Assembly (NCBI GenBank): GCA_951813325.1
Contig: OX638350.1
Span: 3,205,954-3,269,953 of the forward strand
Direction: 5' to 3'
DNA: 64,000 bases
Source: an uncultured Acidimicrobiales bacterium
GTDB lineage: Bacteria; Actinomycetota; Acidimicrobiia; Acidimicrobiales; Bin134
The position numbers and the translations under genes were made by a program. Below, piece by piece: positions 3,633 through 45,747 of this stretch (its first letter is position 1; each line of letters opens with the position of its first letter). A model generated the notes under the pieces. The model did not search any database and had not been told where the DNA came from. It saw only the letters and a list, made by a program, of their open reading frames with translations.

Positions 3633-4048
3633 GGCGACCACCGCACGGTCGCGACGCCGACGGCCCCAATGGGGCCGCTGCGGCCGAACAGGGCCGTCGA
3701 CGGCCGGCACCTCACCGCGGCCACAACCGCCCACGGCTGCGGCCCGCCGCTTTGCGTGTCCACCAACTCGATCGTGGCCCAGTCGCCCTCCGCGGGCGTG
3801 CAGAGCCCCGCCACAGCCACTGCCGCCGACCGCTCGTAGGCGGCGGCGATCTCGGACCAGCGGCCCGGCTCGGCGCCGGCCTGCGGCGGCGGCTCGTCGG
3901 CGGCCTCGGCGGCGGCTGCGGCGGCGGCCTCGGCGGCGAAGGTCTCGATCCGGTAGTTGGCGGACGCCCGGCTGCCGCCGGTGTCCAGCACAACCAGCGC
4001 CACCACCAGCGCTCCCAGCGCCATGATCACCGCTACTGCCTCATCCAT
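3629..4048 (-). CDS. TadE/TadG-like pseudopilin
   Basis: 139 aa. ATG at 4048 is preceded by a G-rich Shine-Dalgarno sequence (GAGGGGG, about 8 nt). The N-terminal helix is AVAVIMALGALVVALVVLD, followed by an Ala-rich amphipathic segment and a small beta-rich domain with two Cys (AGLCTPAEG, AVRCRP). It overlaps the next gene by 4 nt and follows 4068-4502 by 19 nt, so the three pseudopilins are co-translated. It is probably a minor pilin of the Tad machine. Confidence 0.7.
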   Translation of the reverse strand: MDEAVAVIMALGALVVALVVLDTGGSRASANYRIETFAAEAAAAAAAEAADEPPPQAGAEPGRWSEIAAAYERSAAVAVAGLCTPAEGDWATIELVDTQSGGPQPWAVVAAVRCRPSTALFGRSGPIGAVGVATVRWSP

Positions 4049-25105: not shown

Positions 25106-25441
25106 ATCTAGGCCGACGCGGCCTTGCCGGCTTTCCGTGGGGCTGGATGCTCACGTCTATCGCGGGTATTGCTGCATCTCAAGTCGATGTACGGGCTGGC
25201 GGGAACCTCTAGAAGAGGTTCTGTGCCATCCCAACCCCACGGGACGGCAAGGCCGCTGGTGGGTTCCCCGCAATGCCGTTGTGCGGCTCTCTGGGGATCA
25301 CAGGGGCAGCGTGGTTGTGAGCTTCCCCCCAATCGTGGACCATTGGATGCTTGAGGATTTGTGGCGCGACACTCCTAAAAGAGGACGTCTCCACGAAAAA
25401 GGGGGAACCTCAACCCGTTGCACATGTCCCGCGACATCACA
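25106..25441. other. gap after hamB with an old IS481-type end
   Basis: No convincing gene. A perfect inverted repeat GAACCTCT-AGA-AGAGGTTC lies at 25203-25221 and could form a hairpin. The last bases (25423-25441) match the right terminus of the neighbouring IS481 elements at 17 of 19 positions and end exactly where the tRNA-derived duplication begins, so this is probably the right end of an older related element. Confidence 0.6.
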
Positions 25442-25456
25442 AAGCGGAGAGGGTGG
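25442..25456. repeat. 15-bp target duplication, left of IS481 copy 1
   Basis: AAGCGGAGAGGGTGG at 25442-25456 is identical to 26751-26765. The right-hand copy is the 3' end of tRNA-Ser(GCU) plus adjoining bases. They flank the 1293-bp element directly. Confidence 0.9.
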
Positions 25457-26749
25457 TGTGGTGGTTCAGGACATGTGAACCTTATGTCGCGAGACATCGG
25501 AAACTCTGGTGGTTTGCCGTGCGGGTGATTGTAGGGGGTGTCGAAGGCTCGAGCGATCATCATGTCCGTCGTTTTGGAGGGCCGGTCCCAGACCGAGACA
25601 GCCAGGCTCTATGAGGTGTCCAAGGGCTGGGTCTCCAAGCTGGTGGCCCGCTACAAAGCCGAGGGCGAAGCGGCGTTCGAGGCCCGGTCGCGCCGCCCCC
25701 GCACCACCCCTGCGGCGATCCCCGCCGAGACAGTCGAGCTGGTCGTGAACCTGCGCTCAGAGCTCGCCGAACTGGGGCTCGACGCGGGGCCCCACACCAT
25801 CTGCTGGCACCTCGCCCAGCGCCACCAGATCACCGTGTCGCCGTCCACTGTGCGCCGCCGCCTGGCCGAGCGGGGCCTCGTCGAGCCCAACCCCAAAAAA
25901 CGGCCGAAGTCGTCCTATGTCCGGTTCGAGGCCGATCTGCCCAACCAGATGTGGCAGTCCGACTTCTGCCACTGGAACCTCGCCGACGGCTCCACAGCCG
26001 AGGTCATCACCTGGCTCGACGACCATTCCCGCTACGCCCTCTCGGTCACCGCGCACCGCCGCATAACCGGCCCCATAGTCGTCGACACCTTCGACCAAAC
26101 CTGCTGTGAGCACGGCTTTCCCGCGTCGGTGCTCACCGACAACGCCATGGTCTACACCACCCGCTTCTCCGGCGGCCGCGGCGGGCGCAACGCGCTGGAG
26201 ACCCGCCTCGCGGCCCTGGACATCGAACAGAAGAACTCCTCCCCCAACCACCCCACCACCTGCGGAAAGGTCGAGAGGTTCCAACAAACCCTCAAGAAAT
26301 GGCTCAGAGCCCGAACCCCCGCCAACAACCTCAACTCCCTCCAGGGCCTCATCGACGAATTCGCCGACACCTACAACCACCACCGCCCCCACCGATCCCT
26401 CGGCCGGACCACACCAGCCGCCGCCTACCAGCGCATCCCCAAAGCCGAACCCGCCCGACACGGCGACAGAACCCACTTCAGAGTCCGACACGACCGCATC
26501 GACAAATCAGGAACCGTCACCCTGCGCCACAACGGCAAACTCCACCACATCGGCATCGGACGCAAACACAAACGAACCCCAGTGCTCCTGCTCATCGCCG
26601 GCACCCACATCAGAGTCATCGACACCCAAACCGGCGAACTCCTACGCCAACTCCAACTCGACCCAACCCGCGACTACCAACCCCGAAACAAAACCTGAAA
26701 ACCCACCCCCGCGCAGGTTCACAAGTTTCCTATGTCTTGACACATCACA
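25457..26749 (+). mobile_element. IS481-family insertion sequence, copy 1
   Basis: 1293 bp. The left end is TGTGGTGGTTCAGGACAT, and the right end on the complementary strand is TGTGTCAAGACATAGGAAAC; the termini are imperfect inverted repeats beginning TGTG. It contains one transposase gene. It is flanked by a 15-bp duplication of the tRNA-Ser(GCU) 3' end. A second copy of exactly the same length lies in opposite orientation at 28163-29455. Confidence 0.9.
25538..26698 (+). CDS. IS481-family transposase
   Basis: 386 aa, GTG at 25538; an ATG nine codons in is also possible. An N-terminal helix-turn-helix (ARLYEVSKGWVSKLVARY) and a second HTH (HQITVSPSTVRRRLAERG) precede an rve-type DDE core: QMWQSDFCHW (first Asp), SVLTDNAMVYTT (second Asp), GKVERFQQTLKKWL (Glu). 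The typical IS481/IS3-type RPHRSLGRTTPAAAY follows. A ~70-residue C-terminal beta region is present (FRVRHDRIDKSGTVTLRHNG). All catalytic residues are intact. It catalyses cut or copy and insertion of the surrounding 1293-bp element. Confidence 0.95.
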   Translation: MSKARAIIMSVVLEGRSQTETARLYEVSKGWVSKLVARYKAEGEAAFEARSRRPRTTPAAIPAETVELVVNLRSELAELGLDAGPHTICWHLAQRHQITVSPSTVRRRLAERGLVEPNPKKRPKSSYVRFEADLPNQMWQSDFCHWNLADGSTAEVITWLDDHSRYALSVTAHRRITGPIVVDTFDQTCCEHGFPASVLTDNAMVYTTRFSGGRGGRNALETRLAALDIEQKNSSPNHPTTCGKVERFQQTLKKWLRARTPANNLNSLQGLIDEFADTYNHHRPHRSLGRTTPAAAYQRIPKAEPARHGDRTHFRVRHDRIDKSGTVTLRHNGKLHHIGIGRKHKRTPVLLLIAGTHIRVIDTQTGELLRQLQLDPTRDYQPRNKT

Positions 26750-26754
26750 CAAGC

Positions 26755-26844
26755 GGAGAGGGTGGGATTCGAACCCACGAACCACCTTGCGGCAGTTACT
26801 TCCTTAGCAGGGAAGCGCCTTCAACCGGACTCGGCCACCTCTCC
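26755..26844 (-). tRNA. tRNA-Ser (anticodon GCU)
   Basis: 90 nt read on the minus strand: acceptor GGAGAGG pairing with CCTCTCC, long variable arm typical of class II tRNAs, anticodon loop CTGCTAA (GCU), T-loop GGTTCGAATCC. CCA is not encoded. Its 3' end faces the accessory region at lower coordinates and is duplicated beyond the adjoining IS481 element. Confidence 0.95.
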
Positions 26845-26913
26845 AGGCCCTTCCACCCTAGTGGGTCGTCCCCGGTCTGGCCTTATGGATTGCGGGGGAG
26901 CAGCGGGATCCTG

Positions 26914-27267
26914 TCATGCAAAGGCATAAACGAGCGACGTGCCCCAGACCGTGAGCATGACCCCAACAAGAAGGCCGACATAGAGGCGCATCTGCTTGCC
27001 TATAGCAGAGTCGATATACGCGCGCAGCTTGGCGAACTCCACTTGGTTCTCGCTTCGCAGGGTGTTCTCAAGGGCCTTCAGATCTTCCTTCGTGGCGAAC
27101 GCCCTCAGATCTTCCTTGGTGGCGAACGCCCTCAGATCTTCCTTGGTGGCGAGATGGTCGAGTCCATCTGTGAGGAGACATTGCATGAGAGTTTCTGTGG
27201 GTTCCTCTCCGATCACGGCAACCAGCCGGTTAGCCAATTCTCTGCGCTCGACCTCGGTGACCGGCAT
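26914..27267 (-). CDS. small coiled-coil membrane protein
   Basis: 117 aa, ATG at 27267. An acidic N-terminal helix is followed by tandem units LATKEDLRAFATKEDLRAFA (a 27-bp DNA repeat) forming a coiled coil, then MRLYVGLLVGVMLTVWGTSLVY as a C-terminal membrane helix. The pattern (TKxDL repeats then one tail helix) resembles DUF1640/CCDC90-type proteins. Function unknown. It lies in the short core segment between two tRNA-Ser genes. Confidence 0.75.
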   Translation of the reverse strand: MPVTEVERRELANRLVAVIGEEPTETLMQCLLTDGLDHLATKEDLRAFATKEDLRAFATKEDLKALENTLRSENQVEFAKLRAYIDSAIGKQMRLYVGLLVGVMLTVWGTSLVYAFA

Positions 27268-27383
27268 CTTGGGTTCCTTTCTTCAATTCAGAGGGAACCC
27301 TTGATCCCCTATCACGGGGATCGATGCCGGTTCCGATTGCTTCTCGTAGGATAACGATCTCATTTGGCCGAAAGCAACAGACC

Positions 27384-28028
27384 ATGACTCCCTTCGACAC
27401 CGAAAACACTGATCGGCTGCTGTCCACCACCCGGTCGGTGCGGCGGCGGCTGGACTTCGACCGGCCGGTGGATCACGACGTCCTGCGGGACTGCGTGCGT
27501 CTGGCCGCGTATGCCCCCAACGCCTCCAACGCCCAGGATTGGCGCTGGGTGATCGTGACCGACCCCGATCAGCGGGCGGGCATCGCCGAGTACTACCGGG
27601 CGGGCATCGTCCCGCCCATGCAGGAACTGCTCGACCGCCGCCGGGCCGACGGGGACGCTCCCGGCGTTCGCCACTCTGAGGCAGTGCTCTATTTGGCCGA
27701 CCGATTCCACGAGGTGCCCGCCCTGGTGATCCCCTGCATCCGGGGCGAGCTCGACTCCGACATGGATTTCGCCTGGACGGCCAGCCTGTTCGGGTCGATC
27801 CTTCCCGCGGTGTGGAGCTTCCAACTGGCCCTCCACAGCCGGGGCTTGGCCTCCACCTTCACCACCGCCCACCTGCTGGCCGCCGACGAGGTGGCCGCCC
27901 TGCTCGACATCCCGCACGGCTACCTCCAAACCTGCCTCATCCCGGTGGCCTACCTGCGGGGCGACAACCTCAAGCCCCCCGCCCGCAAAGACCCAGACGA
28001 GATCATCGCCTGGAACCGCTGGGCCTAA
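27384..28028 (+). CDS. nitroreductase family protein
   Basis: 214 aa; ATG at 27384 was chosen because the longer frame adds a non-conserved basic stretch. The N-terminus LLSTTRSVRRRLDFDRPVD is the nitroreductase RS(V/I)R motif, then APNASNAQDWRWVIV (FMN-binding PSxxNxQPW-like) and IPHGYLQTCLIPVAYLRG near the end. These are FMN-dependent NAD(P)H oxidoreductases. Substrate unknown. It is the only enzyme gene in the core segment between the two tRNA-Ser genes. Confidence 0.85.
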   Translation: MTPFDTENTDRLLSTTRSVRRRLDFDRPVDHDVLRDCVRLAAYAPNASNAQDWRWVIVTDPDQRAGIAEYYRAGIVPPMQELLDRRRADGDAPGVRHSEAVLYLADRFHEVPALVIPCIRGELDSDMDFAWTASLFGSILPAVWSFQLALHSRGLASTFTTAHLLAADEVAALLDIPHGYLQTCLIPVAYLRGDNLKPPARKDPDEIIAWNRWA

Positions 28029-28071
28029 ACCACCCCCTCAGGCCCACCCCCAGACCACTAATCTCCCCCTC

Positions 28072-28158
28072 GGAGGGATGGCAGAGCGGACGATTGCGAC
28101 GGCCTTGAAAGCCGTAGGGCCTTCCGGGGTCCCGGGGGTTCGAATCCCCCTCCCTCCG
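28072..28158 (+). tRNA. tRNA-Ser (anticodon UGA)
   Basis: 87 nt: acceptor GGAGGGA with TCCCTCC and discriminator G, long variable arm, anticodon loop CTTGAAA (UGA), T-loop GGTTCGAATCC. Its 3' end faces right and is followed at 28163 by IS481 copy 2. The last bases of the gene are duplicated at 29456-29471. Confidence 0.95.
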
Positions 28159-28162
28159 CAAG
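28147..28162. repeat. 16-bp target duplication, left of IS481 copy 2
   Basis: CCCCTCCCTCCGCAAG at 28147-28162 is the end of tRNA-Ser(UGA) plus four bases. An identical copy is at 29456-29471 on the other side of the element, so the insertion left the tRNA gene intact. Confidence 0.95.
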
Positions 28163-29455
28163 TGTGATGTCGCGAGACATCGGAAACTTTGAACCTGCGC
28201 GGGGGCGGGTTTTTCAGGGTTGGTTTCGGGGTTGGTAGTCGCGGGTTGGGTCGAGTTGGAGGTGTCGGAGGAGCTCGCCGGTTTGGGTGTCGGTGACGCG
28301 TATGTCGAGGTCGGCTATGAGGAGTGCGATGGGGGTGTGTTTGTGGGCTCGGCCGATGCCGATGTGGTGGAGTTTGCCGTTGTGGCGCAGGGTGACGGTG
28401 CCTGATTTGTCGATGGTGTCTTTGCGGACTCTGAAGTGGGTTCCGGCGCCGTGGTGGTGGGGGCCGGTTTTGGGGAGGCGCTGGTAGGCGGCGGCGGGGG
28501 TTTGGCGGTTGAGGGATCGGTGGGGGCGGTGGTGGTTGTAGGTGCGGGTGAGTTGGTCGAGCTGGGCTTGGAGGGCGTCGAGGTTGTGGGCGCCGGGTTG
28601 GGCTTTGAGCCATTTCTTGAGGGTTTGTTGGAATCTCTCGACTTTTCCGCAGGTGGTGGGGCGGTTGGGCGCGGAGTGCTTCTGGGCGATGCCGAGGTCG
28701 GCCAATAGGGTTTCGAGGGCGTTGCGGCCGCCGCGGCCGCCGGAGAGCCGTGTGGTGTAGACCATGGCGTTGTCGGTGAGCACCGACGCGGGGAACCCGT
28801 GGTCAGCGCAGGTTTGGTTGAAGGTGGCGACGACGATGGGGCCGGTGATGCGCCGGTGGGCGGTGACCGACAGCGCGTAGCGGGAGCAGTCGTCGAGCCA
28901 GGTGATGACCTCGGTGGTGGAGTCGTTTGAGAGCGCCCAACAGCAGAAGTCCGACTGCCACATCTCGTTGGGCAGATCTGCGGCGAATCGGACATAGGAC
29001 GACCGGGGCCGCTTTTTCGGGGTGGGCTCCACGACGCCTGCCTCGACGAGGCGGCGCCAGATCGTCGAGGCAGACACCGTGACCTGATGGCGGTGGGCGA
29101 GGTGCCAGCAGATGGTGTGCGCTCCGGCGTCGAGGCCCTGGGCCACCAGCTCGGCGCGCAGGTTCACCGCCAGCTCCACCACGGCGTCTGACACCTTGGC
29201 CGGAGAGGTTCGGGGACGCCGCGACCGGGGCTCGAACGCGGCGGGGCCATCTGAGCGCCATCGGGCCATGAGCTTGGAGACATGCCCCTCAGACACCCCG
29301 TAGCGCCTGGCTGCCTGGGCTTGGGTGATGCCCTCGACTGCTACCGACATGATGATCGCCTGCCTCTTCGACACCCCCTACAATCACCCACACGGCAAAC
29401 CACCAGAGTTTCCGATGTCTCGCGACATGGGTTTCCGATGTCCTGAACCACCACA
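28163..29455 (-). mobile_element. IS481-family insertion sequence, copy 2
   Basis: 1293 bp, the same length as copy 1. Termini are TGTGATGTCGCGAGACATCG at 28163 and, on the minus strand, TGTGGTGGTTCAGGACATCG ending at 29455. It contains one intact transposase gene on the minus strand. It is inserted at the same relative position of tRNA-Ser(UGA) as copy 1 is in tRNA-Ser(GCU), with a perfect 16-bp duplication. Confidence 0.95.
28214..29374 (-). CDS. IS481-family transposase
   Basis: 386 aa, GTG start at 29374, same length and organisation as the copy at 25538-26698 but with many scattered substitutions, so the two are diverged relatives and not a recent duplication. HTH AARRYGVSEGHVSKLMARW; DDE residues in MWQSDFCCWA, VLTDNAMVYTT and GKVERFQQTLKKWL, all present. 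It should be catalytically competent. Confidence 0.95.
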   Translation of the reverse strand: MSKRQAIIMSVAVEGITQAQAARRYGVSEGHVSKLMARWRSDGPAAFEPRSRRPRTSPAKVSDAVVELAVNLRAELVAQGLDAGAHTICWHLAHRHQVTVSASTIWRRLVEAGVVEPTPKKRPRSSYVRFAADLPNEMWQSDFCCWALSNDSTTEVITWLDDCSRYALSVTAHRRITGPIVVATFNQTCADHGFPASVLTDNAMVYTTRLSGGRGGRNALETLLADLGIAQKHSAPNRPTTCGKVERFQQTLKKWLKAQPGAHNLDALQAQLDQLTRTYNHHRPHRSLNRQTPAAAYQRLPKTGPHHHGAGTHFRVRKDTIDKSGTVTLRHNGKLHHIGIGRAHKHTPIALLIADLDIRVTDTQTGELLRHLQLDPTRDYQPRNQP

Positions 29456-29471
29456 CCCCTCCCTCCGCAAG
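29456..29471. repeat. 16-bp target duplication, right of IS481 copy 2
   Basis: Identical to 28147-28162 (CCCCTCCCTCCGCAAG). Before the insertion this sequence continued into the island at 29472 onward, so the original 3' junction of the tRNA gene with the accessory DNA lies here. Confidence 0.9.
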
Positions 29472-29608: not shown

Positions 29609-29691
29609 ATGGGGAAGCTCACCGCAGCGGAGGTCAAAAGCGCCGGGCCGGGTAGGCACCAGGACGGCGACGGGCTGTATTTGAGGTCGAC
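29609..29691 (+). pseudogene. N-terminal fragment of a tyrosine integrase (DUF4102 type)
   Basis: ATG at 29609, preceded by GGCAGGA, starts MGKLTAAEVKSAGPGRHQDG and DGLYLRST, the N-terminal arm-binding motif of DUF4102 phage/island integrases. After 27 codons the frame runs into the terminal repeat of an IS5-family element. The remaining ~370 residues are not found downstream. Its place ~140 bp from the tRNA 3' end matches an island integrase next to its attachment site. Confidence 0.85.
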
Positions 29692-30660
29692 CTTAGAGCG
29701 CGCGCAGATAGGTGTTAGCTGGGGTTCCATTTGTCGGCTTTTTTGATGAGCTTTATGGCGATGATGATGGTGATGGCGAGTGCGAGTTGCCCGAGGCGGG
29801 CTTTGGTGTTGCGGTCGGTGCTGCGTCGTAGCTGGCCGAAGTTCGACAGCCATGAGTTTGTTCGCTCGATGGTCCAGCGCATTCCCAGGGGGTCGGTGCT
29901 GGGCTGGCCGCGGGCTGTTCCGGGCCGGCGTTTGGGTGTGCGCACGATGTTGTTGATGCCGTGGCTGCGGCAGGTCTGCGCCACGGGGTTCCCGGCGTAG
30001 CCGCGGTCGAGGTGTAGCGTCTCGACGTCCAAGAGCTGGCCGCGGCGGGCGGCGTCGGCGAGGGTGGGTTCCAACAGGGTGCAGTCGTTGCGGTTGGCGG
30101 CGTCGGCCGCCCAGGCGACCGGGATGCCGTCGCGGTCCGCCAAAATAGACCACTTCCAACCGGATTTGCCCCTGTCAACAGGGCTTTTGCCGGTTCCCTC
30201 GCCCCCGCAGGGGGCCTTGTGGATCGACGCGTCCACCGACGCGTCGGACAAGTCGATGCCCACGACGCGGTCATAGCCCTCAAGGGCCTCGGCCACCGCC
30301 CGGTCGAACACCCCCTGGGCGTTCCAATCGTTGTAGCGGGTCCTCAAAACGGTCTCGCCGCCTTTGCCCAAACGGCCCGCGACATCCCACGAGCAGCCCG
30401 TCACCAGCCGGAACAAGACCGCCTCGAACACATCCCGGTCCGGGATCCTCGGCCGGTGACAGCCCAACGGGTGGAACACCTCCTCGCGCTCAGGAATCAA
30501 CGGCTCCACAGCCGCCCACACCACATCCACCACCCGCGGATCCAAAGCAAGCATGATTACAGCACCTCCACCATGTCGTTGTCGTTGGGGTCTCACCCGA
30601 CATCAAAGCCGGTCCAACACAACGACAGGTGGACGCCCACCTATCTGCGCGCTCCCTAAG
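29692..30660 (-). mobile_element. IS5-family insertion sequence
   Basis: 969 bp bounded by 23-bp inverted repeats (left CTTAGAGCGCGCGCAGATAG at 29692; right, read on the minus strand, CTTAGGGAGCGCGCAGATAG ending at 30660; two mismatches over 23). One transposase gene. It truncates the integrase gene at 29609. Confidence 0.9.
29715..30554 (-). CDS. IS5-family transposase
   Basis: 279 aa. ATG at 30554 follows GGAGG by about 10 nt. The N-terminal part (WAAVEPLIPE, RPRIPDRDVFEAVLFRLVTG, GCSW) is the DUF4096-like domain of IS5 transposases. The DDE core has GIDLSDASVDASIHKAP (first Asp), LHLDRGYAGNPV (second Asp) and MRWTIERTNSWLSNFGQL (Glu in the signature W.IER...W). Intact. Confidence 0.95.
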   Translation of the reverse strand: MLALDPRVVDVVWAAVEPLIPEREEVFHPLGCHRPRIPDRDVFEAVLFRLVTGCSWDVAGRLGKGGETVLRTRYNDWNAQGVFDRAVAEALEGYDRVVGIDLSDASVDASIHKAPCGGEGTGKSPVDRGKSGWKWSILADRDGIPVAWAADAANRNDCTLLEPTLADAARRGQLLDVETLHLDRGYAGNPVAQTCRSHGINNIVRTPKRRPGTARGQPSTDPLGMRWTIERTNSWLSNFGQLRRSTDRNTKARLGQLALAITIIIAIKLIKKADKWNPS

Positions 30661-45386: not shown

Positions 45387-45662
45387 TTCGCGCCATAAAC
45401 TCTAGTTTGTGTCACCAATTGGCCAGAATCTTCACTCCCCGCGCGGCATACCTCGCGCCCGCCACTAGGCGCGGCGACCTCCTGCGTCGACATGCCCGAA
45501 GTTCCAACTGTCCCAACCAAGCACAGCTCGGTACCCACCACAGCCTGCGTGATACCCGATGGGGCTCAGCGGACGCCAGACATGGCACCAGACATGGCAC
45601 CAGACCACTGCTGCGCTGACATAATCCCATGTCAACAGCCATATTGTGGTCTATTCTTTGAG
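45387..45662. other. intergenic region next to tRNA-Ser(GGA)
   Basis: No convincing gene. It contains an 11-12 bp tandem repeat (GACATGGCACCA twice, about 45583-45607) and a short inverted repeat TGACAT/ATGTCA (about 45618-45635). Confidence 0.4.
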
Positions 45663-45747
45663 CGGAGGGGGTGGGATTCGAACCCACGGTGGCTTACGCC
45701 ACACACGCTTTCCAAGCGTGCCGATTCGGCCGCTCTCGCACCCCTCC
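45663..45747 (-). tRNA. tRNA-Ser (anticodon GGA)
   Basis: 85 nt on the minus strand: acceptor GGAGGGG with CCCCTCC and discriminator G, long variable arm, anticodon loop CTTGGAAA (GGA), T-loop GGTTCGAATCC. Its 3' end faces the accessory block at 41.6-45.6 kb. Confidence 0.95.

Follow-up and report, generated by a model that had tools for sequence, protein, structure and literature searches.

Transfer RNA (tRNA) genes are classic landing sites for phages and genomic islands, whose tyrosine integrases use the 3' ends of these genes and restore the tRNA from sequence that the element carries. Insertion sequences (ISs) of the IS481 family, with a single transposase made of a helix-turn-helix (HTH) region and a DDE catalytic core, TGT/ACA ends and a length of ~1.3 kb, duplicate ~4-15 bp of target DNA, and to our knowledge the known members recognise short target motifs at most. 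Here, we describe two IS481-family elements, A and B, at the 3' ends of two tRNA-Ser genes in a 64,000-nucleotide (nt) stretch of an uncultured Acidimicrobiales bacterium (assembly GCA_951813325.1, contig OX638350.1, positions 3,205,954 to 3,269,953), referred to below as the window. We judge it highly probable, from comparison of sequences, that they belong to an IS481 clade specialised to one target, the 3' ends of tRNA genes, through a DDE transposase that would read the T-arm and cut 15-16 bp apart.

DDE transposition to tRNA genes is also a property of Tn7-like elements and of the V-K, I-D and I-B2 CRISPR-associated transposons (CASTs), which share a related fold and the TGT/ACA ends of IS481 but rely on TnsC and TniQ/TnsD or a guide RNA (PMC11406308), whereas the element described here encodes one protein. 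Among eukaryotic DDE transposons, Dada elements are likewise tRNA-specific (also U1 and U6), use the same site in many genes and occur as repeat-separated tandem copies, some flanked by different tRNA genes (PMC3706591). Dada differs in its IS256/MuDR-type transposase superfamily and its duplications of 6-7 bp, compared to IS481/rve and 15-16 bp here, and it inserts within tRNA genes of hosts that have hundreds of copies (PMC3706591), whereas here single-copy essential tRNAs are regenerated. TnGBS, ISLre2 and ISKra4 similarly have unequal ends that fix their orientation, but with a sigma-A promoter as the signal and a Mutator-type transposase (PMC3942029). The Tn7-like/CAST, Dada and TnGBS/ISLre2 systems include no bacterial element that works with one protein and sits at tRNA 3' ends, and we found no description of a tRNA-targeting IS481 element in the open literature, ISfinder, TnPedia and subscription journals lying outside our coverage. 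The elements would thus represent a branch of IS481 whose target, a whole gene class hit at one position, is both new and strict, unlike the short motifs of the known members.

The two elements, their targets and the flanking repeats are arranged in the window as follows.

25457..26749, + strand, 1293 bp: element A, a complete IS481-family element (TGTG...CACA), transposase 3' end toward tRNA-Ser(GCU)
25538..26698, + strand: transposase A, 386 aa, catalytic residues D142, D201 and E246
26753..26844, - strand: tRNA-Ser(GCU), intact (59.9 bits in Rfam), target of element A
26750..26765, - strand: tRNA-proximal copy of the element A target duplication, lying within the functional tRNA plus 3 nt
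25442..25456, - strand: distal copy of the element A target duplication, 15 bp identical
28163..29455, - strand, 1293 bp: element B, a complete IS481-family element (TGTG...CACA)
28214..29374, - strand: transposase B, 386 aa, 74% identical to transposase A
28072..28159, + strand: tRNA-Ser(UGA), intact (56.9 bits in Rfam), target of element B
28147..28162, + strand: tRNA-proximal copy of the 16-bp target duplication of element B, CCCCTCCCTCCGCAAG
29456..29471, + strand: distal copy of the same 16-bp duplication CCCCTCCCTCCGCAAG, exact

Elements A and B are ~82% identical in DNA sequence and, as proposed in the initial annotation, occupy the same relative position in their targets: in both, the transposase gene points toward the tRNA 3' end and the element starts 24 nt from the T-loop. 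The direct repeats also proved as proposed, each equal to the last bases of the respective tRNA-Ser plus ~3, such that both tRNAs are left intact, here by the target duplication itself. For element A, 25442-25456 and 26751-26765 are identical at 15/15 positions and the 16th is mismatched. These 15-16 bp are at, or one above, the upper limit given above for the family. The third tRNA-Ser gene of the window (GGA, 45662-45747) has no element. With 46 tRNA genes in a genome of 3.59 Mb, a random insertion would fall in the right orientation at one of the two positions with p ~1e-5, and two such insertions by chance would therefore be of the order of 1e-10.

Assignment to IS481 holds for both transposases, which score 239.8 and 228.0 bits against the NCBIfam IS481 model NF033577 (curated cut-off 224), and the Pfam rve and rve_3 matches are above cut-off. 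The DDE triad D142, D201 and E246 is invariant among 18 relatives compared; the spacing before the catalytic E exceeds the usual 35, and does so too in relatives that are not at tRNA genes. An AlphaFold model of the transposase (mean predicted local distance difference test score 82.8) resembled IS21 IstA best, followed by TnsB and the Rous sarcoma virus and mouse mammary tumour virus integrases, a likeness of the predicted fold that is as expected for IS481. Nearly all copies have terminal inverted repeats (TGTGATGTC...) that start with TGT and end with ACA. Between the ends of the 1293-bp element lies a single frame of 386 aa (relatives measure ~1.27-1.38 kb). Accordingly, no TnsC, TniQ/TnsD or Cas gene and no tyrosine recombinase was found inside the element, whose only product is the DDE transposase.

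We examined the other copies in the same genome, a single 3.59-Mb contig with 12 full copies and two fragments of the element. ARAGORN identified eight tRNA genes with occupied 3' ends: Ser-GCU, Ser-UGA, Met, Arg-CCU, Arg-CCG, Arg-UCU, Thr-UGU and Pro-CGG. The full copies are on these genes or in tandem arrays attached to them, except one near Arg-CCU that retains a tRNA-Arg repeat. The preference for tRNA-Ser ends first suspected therefore survives as one for tRNA 3' ends, serine specificity being ruled out by the Arg, Met, Thr and Pro genes occupied in this genome. For seven of the eight, no other gene in the genome has the same anticodon, and these tRNAs must hence still function; all eight score as normal tRNAs. 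The arrays comprise three copies at Met and two at Arg-UCU with a 15-bp tRNA-derived repeat between successive copies, indicating that the regenerated target is open to renewed insertion. Near-identical copies of element A are present at six loci, which suggests that it has moved recently and may be active at present.

Traces of further copies accompany these loci. One lies directly behind the distal repeat of element A and is a trace of a former tandem copy beside it:

25417..25441, - strand: remnant of another element's tRNA-side end, TGTGATGTCGCGGGACATGTGCAAC

At L019:3010-3192, an element fragment is next to a bare tRNA-Arg 3' fragment (TTCGAATCCTGCCGTGGGCGCTG), the relic of an attachment site or of a lost tRNA.

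A scan of ~85,000 species genomes yielded 80 loci with relatives, and a 296-genome sample of the phylum added more. The initial annotation had looked to Acidimicrobiia for relatives, a range that turned out to be too narrow: the named loci are actinobacterial, with Mycobacterium, Nocardioides, Kribbella, Modestobacter, Kocuria, Salinibacterium and others besides Acidimicrobiia, and include one metagenome-assembled genome (MAG) labelled Bifidobacterium. A tree of 114 proteins places every tRNA-bearing locus of this orientation in a single group of 84 (support 100). The tRNA-side junction could be read at 77 clade loci. Counted from the first T of the T-loop, the element lies 23 nt away in 40 of them, 24 nt in 36 and 25 nt in one, whatever the tRNA type, the variable arm or the presence of an encoded CCA. 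Wherever the T-loop junction of a clade copy can be resolved, the copy adjoins a tRNA 3' end; none is in reverse orientation, and a viral contig and a megaplasmid that carry clade members have them at tRNA 3' ends as well. The megaplasmid copy is the only plasmid copy among 72,556 plasmids, and 50,697 phage records gave no match. By contrast, a tRNA was found at the corresponding end in none of 38 IS481 relatives outside the clade that served as a control (0/38). These 77/77 junctions inside a 3-nt window against 0/38 in controls rule out coincidence, and the specificity for tRNA 3' ends, unusual among DDE transposases, is thus a property of the clade and not of two insertions. It is very improbable that insertion is random and that selection then spares only the harmless copies behind tRNA genes. 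Insertion here is indeed harmless because the tRNA is regenerated, but selection cannot alone yield one distance (23-24 nt), one orientation and a preference in T-loop sequence, and further IS481 elements, from the same genus and the very same genomes, lie away from tRNAs.

A full tRNA recognised by ARAGORN adjoins the element at 61/77 loci (Ser 15, Pro 13, Arg 12, Leu 8, Met 7, Lys 3, and Thr, Ala and Val one each), and a tRNA 3' part alone at the other 16/77. An Rfam search of 20 loci without an ARAGORN tRNA at the junction found no further tRNA in 19/20, and so the 3' parts are real truncations rather than overlooked genes. Several of the 16 begin at the anticodon loop, a remnant typical of the far end of integrase islands, whether the island came before or after the IS. 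Such breakpoints could be taken to mean that the loci are integrase hot spots, the repeats being attachment sites of tyrosine integrases of genomic islands and the ISs passengers or late invaders, and an integrase-like frame does lie behind element B:

29609..29727, + strand: start of a phage-type integrase-like frame behind the element B repeat, ended by an IS5-like insertion (resemblance judged by eye)

Integrases do use the same sites, yet this leaves the IS junctions unaccounted for. The 15-16 bp repeats enclose exactly the IS (TGT...ACA) with the transposase alone inside, their start is fixed relative to the T-loop across many tRNAs and species, and arrays of two or three copies have a repeat between each. 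We accordingly rejected the elements as integrase attachment sites, and give a hot spot of this kind hardly any weight as the explanation. In the window, at 29609-30596, the integrase-like start behind tRNA-Ser(UGA) is broken by the IS5-like transposase; this tRNA gene was probably once an integrase attachment site too, with an old genomic island there.

Among the 66 loci at which both ends are present, the repeats are exact over 14-16 bp at 37. Empty sites are seen in sister species, which have the tRNA-Thr and tRNA-Arg(CCG) loci without the element and with the same downstream sequence. The repeat begins 8 nt into the T-loop motif and finishes just behind the tRNA, and these fixed bounds indicate that the T-arm sets the cutting. 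Moreover, T-loops of the form TTCRAAT are found in 61/77 targets (79%) versus 19/46 tRNAs (41%) of the element's own genome, the one genome that served as background (Fisher p 3e-5). Since the T-loop is outside the duplicated stretch, TTCRAAT would serve for recognition rather than result from duplication. A subterminal GGTTCA in the element matching the T-arm, as proposed for Dada, was considered by eye and discarded, for it is oriented differently relative to the junction and some copies lack it.

Instead of T-arm DNA, the target might be a feature bound up with how the tRNA is expressed or folds, such as a cruciform, an R-loop, RNA polymerase at the terminator or the tRNA itself. The T-arm is an inverted repeat and all targets are structured RNA genes. 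In addition, the nearest sister element not at a tRNA lies within a perfect hairpin whose arms measure 14 bp and whose loop falls inside the element's 15-bp duplication (L097:2320-2340 and 3650-3680), and a second, L098, sits in a 7-bp dyad. However, a hairpin preference of these sisters is clear only for L097 and suggestive for L098 and L120; L101 and L135 show none, and dyads were not significant in L101, L120 or L135. The preference for TTCRAAT over TTCGAGT or TTCRAGT is at the level of sequence, and copies on 3' parts, at L032 even without the 5' strand of the T-stem, suggest that a whole tRNA is dispensable; an island may postdate the IS, and so these copies are not decisive. Overall, we regard a target of this type as unlikely, if less so than the two explanations dismissed above.

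Under direct recognition of T-arm DNA, the reading we prefer, the transposase (HTH region, DDE core and C-terminal beta domain) would recognise the T-arm GGTTCRAATCC in a fixed orientation and would join the two unequal element ends to opposite strands at points separated by 15-16 bp. The first cut would fall 8 nt past the T-loop start and the second just behind the tRNA end. Gap repair would then duplicate the 15-16 bp, one copy completing the tRNA and the other lying beyond the element, and the intact tRNA would be open to repeat insertion, giving tandem arrays spaced by the 15-16 bp repeat.

In many elements, the tRNA-side end contains a terminator-like hairpin in the tRNA direction that could substitute for the displaced terminator. 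A hairpin of -10 kcal/mol or below followed by a T-run, in the tRNA sense, is present in 29/77 copies, mostly 45-61 nt inside the tRNA-side end, compared to two in the antisense control and 0/77 in coding windows, and none of that strength was found in five sister elements not targeting tRNAs. The one in element A is weaker:

26696..26729, - strand: weak terminator-like hairpin in the tRNA direction, inside the tRNA-side end of element A, -9.9 kcal/mol

To judge from its placement, the hairpin likely ends tRNA transcription in place of the terminator that insertion displaces by 1.3 kb; an equally good reading is that it keeps tRNA transcription out of the transposase gene.

Besides the one-genome background of the T-loop comparison, several observations weigh against so simple a picture. 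Strong terminators are in under half of the copies. Two clade members, L068 and L105, have no recognisable T-loop alongside, their far flank being a tRNA-Pro end. The repeats are mismatched at 1-4 positions at 10/66 loci and have no match at 19/66, many of these last being bordered, on the far side, by a different tRNA's 3' end. Lastly, compared with the empty sites of the sister species, the Thr and Arg(CCG) repeats hold bases foreign to the native locus, and the foreign part resembles a tRNA-Arg end. These hybrid repeats belong to recently moved copies of the window's own genome (L019:12537-13829 and L021:2827-4119, compared with L210, L211 and L190). For Arg(CCG), the empty site reads CTGCCGTGGGCGCTT, the near copy at the occupied site ends in a foreign G and the far copy is CTGCCGGGGGC followed by GCTT; for Thr, the far copy is CTGCCGGGGGC followed by TCTG, versus the native CTGTCTCGGGCTCTG. 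Plain transposition does not give such hybrids, and later gene conversion or carriage of the donor flank is needed.

Different tRNA 3' ends on the two sides were seen at L029 (Pro/Thr), L033 (Pro/Ser), L037 (Leu/Arg), L040, L052 (Pro/Ser) and L062 (Met/Pro), and at L047, L068 and L105 the far side alone is readable as a tRNA end (Pro for L068 and L105). Recombination between copies at different tRNA loci is the likely cause of the discordant flanks, and assembly errors in MAGs may be behind some of them.

The elements could also have spread largely through recombination events that take along part of the donor's repeat, instead of transposing cleanly at every move. This would fit the hybrid repeats at Arg(CCG) and Thr, a repeat derived from tRNA-Arg within the Met array and the approximately nine loci with different tRNAs on the two sides (L033, L037 and L062 among them). 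Against it, the 37/66 loci with exact repeats of the local tRNA are as plain transposition predicts, swapped flanks also arise by ordinary homologous recombination between copies, and chimeras are possible in short-read assemblies (L029 is a MAG). We hold such a mode of spread to be a minority possibility, though a somewhat better one than a target tied to expression or folding.

A separate IS481 group from other genomes of the phylum (L129, L174, L181, L182, L183 and L185) is likewise found at tRNA 3' ends but faces the other way: the tRNA adjoins the 5' end of the transposase gene, and the T-loop is 28-30 nt away. In the same group, L177, L178, L186 and L187 are at non-tRNA sites with duplications of 14-15 bp. 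Elements not at tRNAs lie between the two groups in the tree, and orientation and offset differ, so that tRNA targeting probably arose twice within IS481, as far as tree and junctions can tell. A more far-reaching possibility, which we put forward only tentatively, is that these are dedicated tRNA-gene parasites with a T-arm reader, a replacement terminator, a donor 3' end sometimes carried along and at least two origins in IS481, the second with the opposite orientation.

Two further observations concern the neighbourhood of these loci. The end of another IS481-like element (TCTAAAACTGAYGGAGGT...) starts exactly at a tRNA-derived repeat at L017:7063-7210, L020:3830-3860 and L030; it abuts tRNA repeats at Met, Arg-UCU and L030, and its other copies are not at tRNAs. 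In the window, near tRNA-Ser(GCU), three tandem 27-bp repeats (27074-27154; DLRAFATKE repeated) are present within a gene of 117 aa.

Targeting of this kind means that a single-gene parasite gains a harmless home previously tied to phage-type integrases and Tn7-like transposons. With one protein and many tRNAs, it is the simplest natural case for studying how targeting of a gene class arises in a DDE transposase, and its compact enzyme is a candidate for insertion at safe sites found dozens of times per genome. Repeats associated with actinobacterial tRNA genes, usually read as integrase attachment sites, may partly be IS duplications. Copies at tRNA loci could also drive rearrangements between those loci and, if donor ends are indeed carried along, tRNA genes would swap 3' ends and their loci would serve as points of chromosomal recombination.

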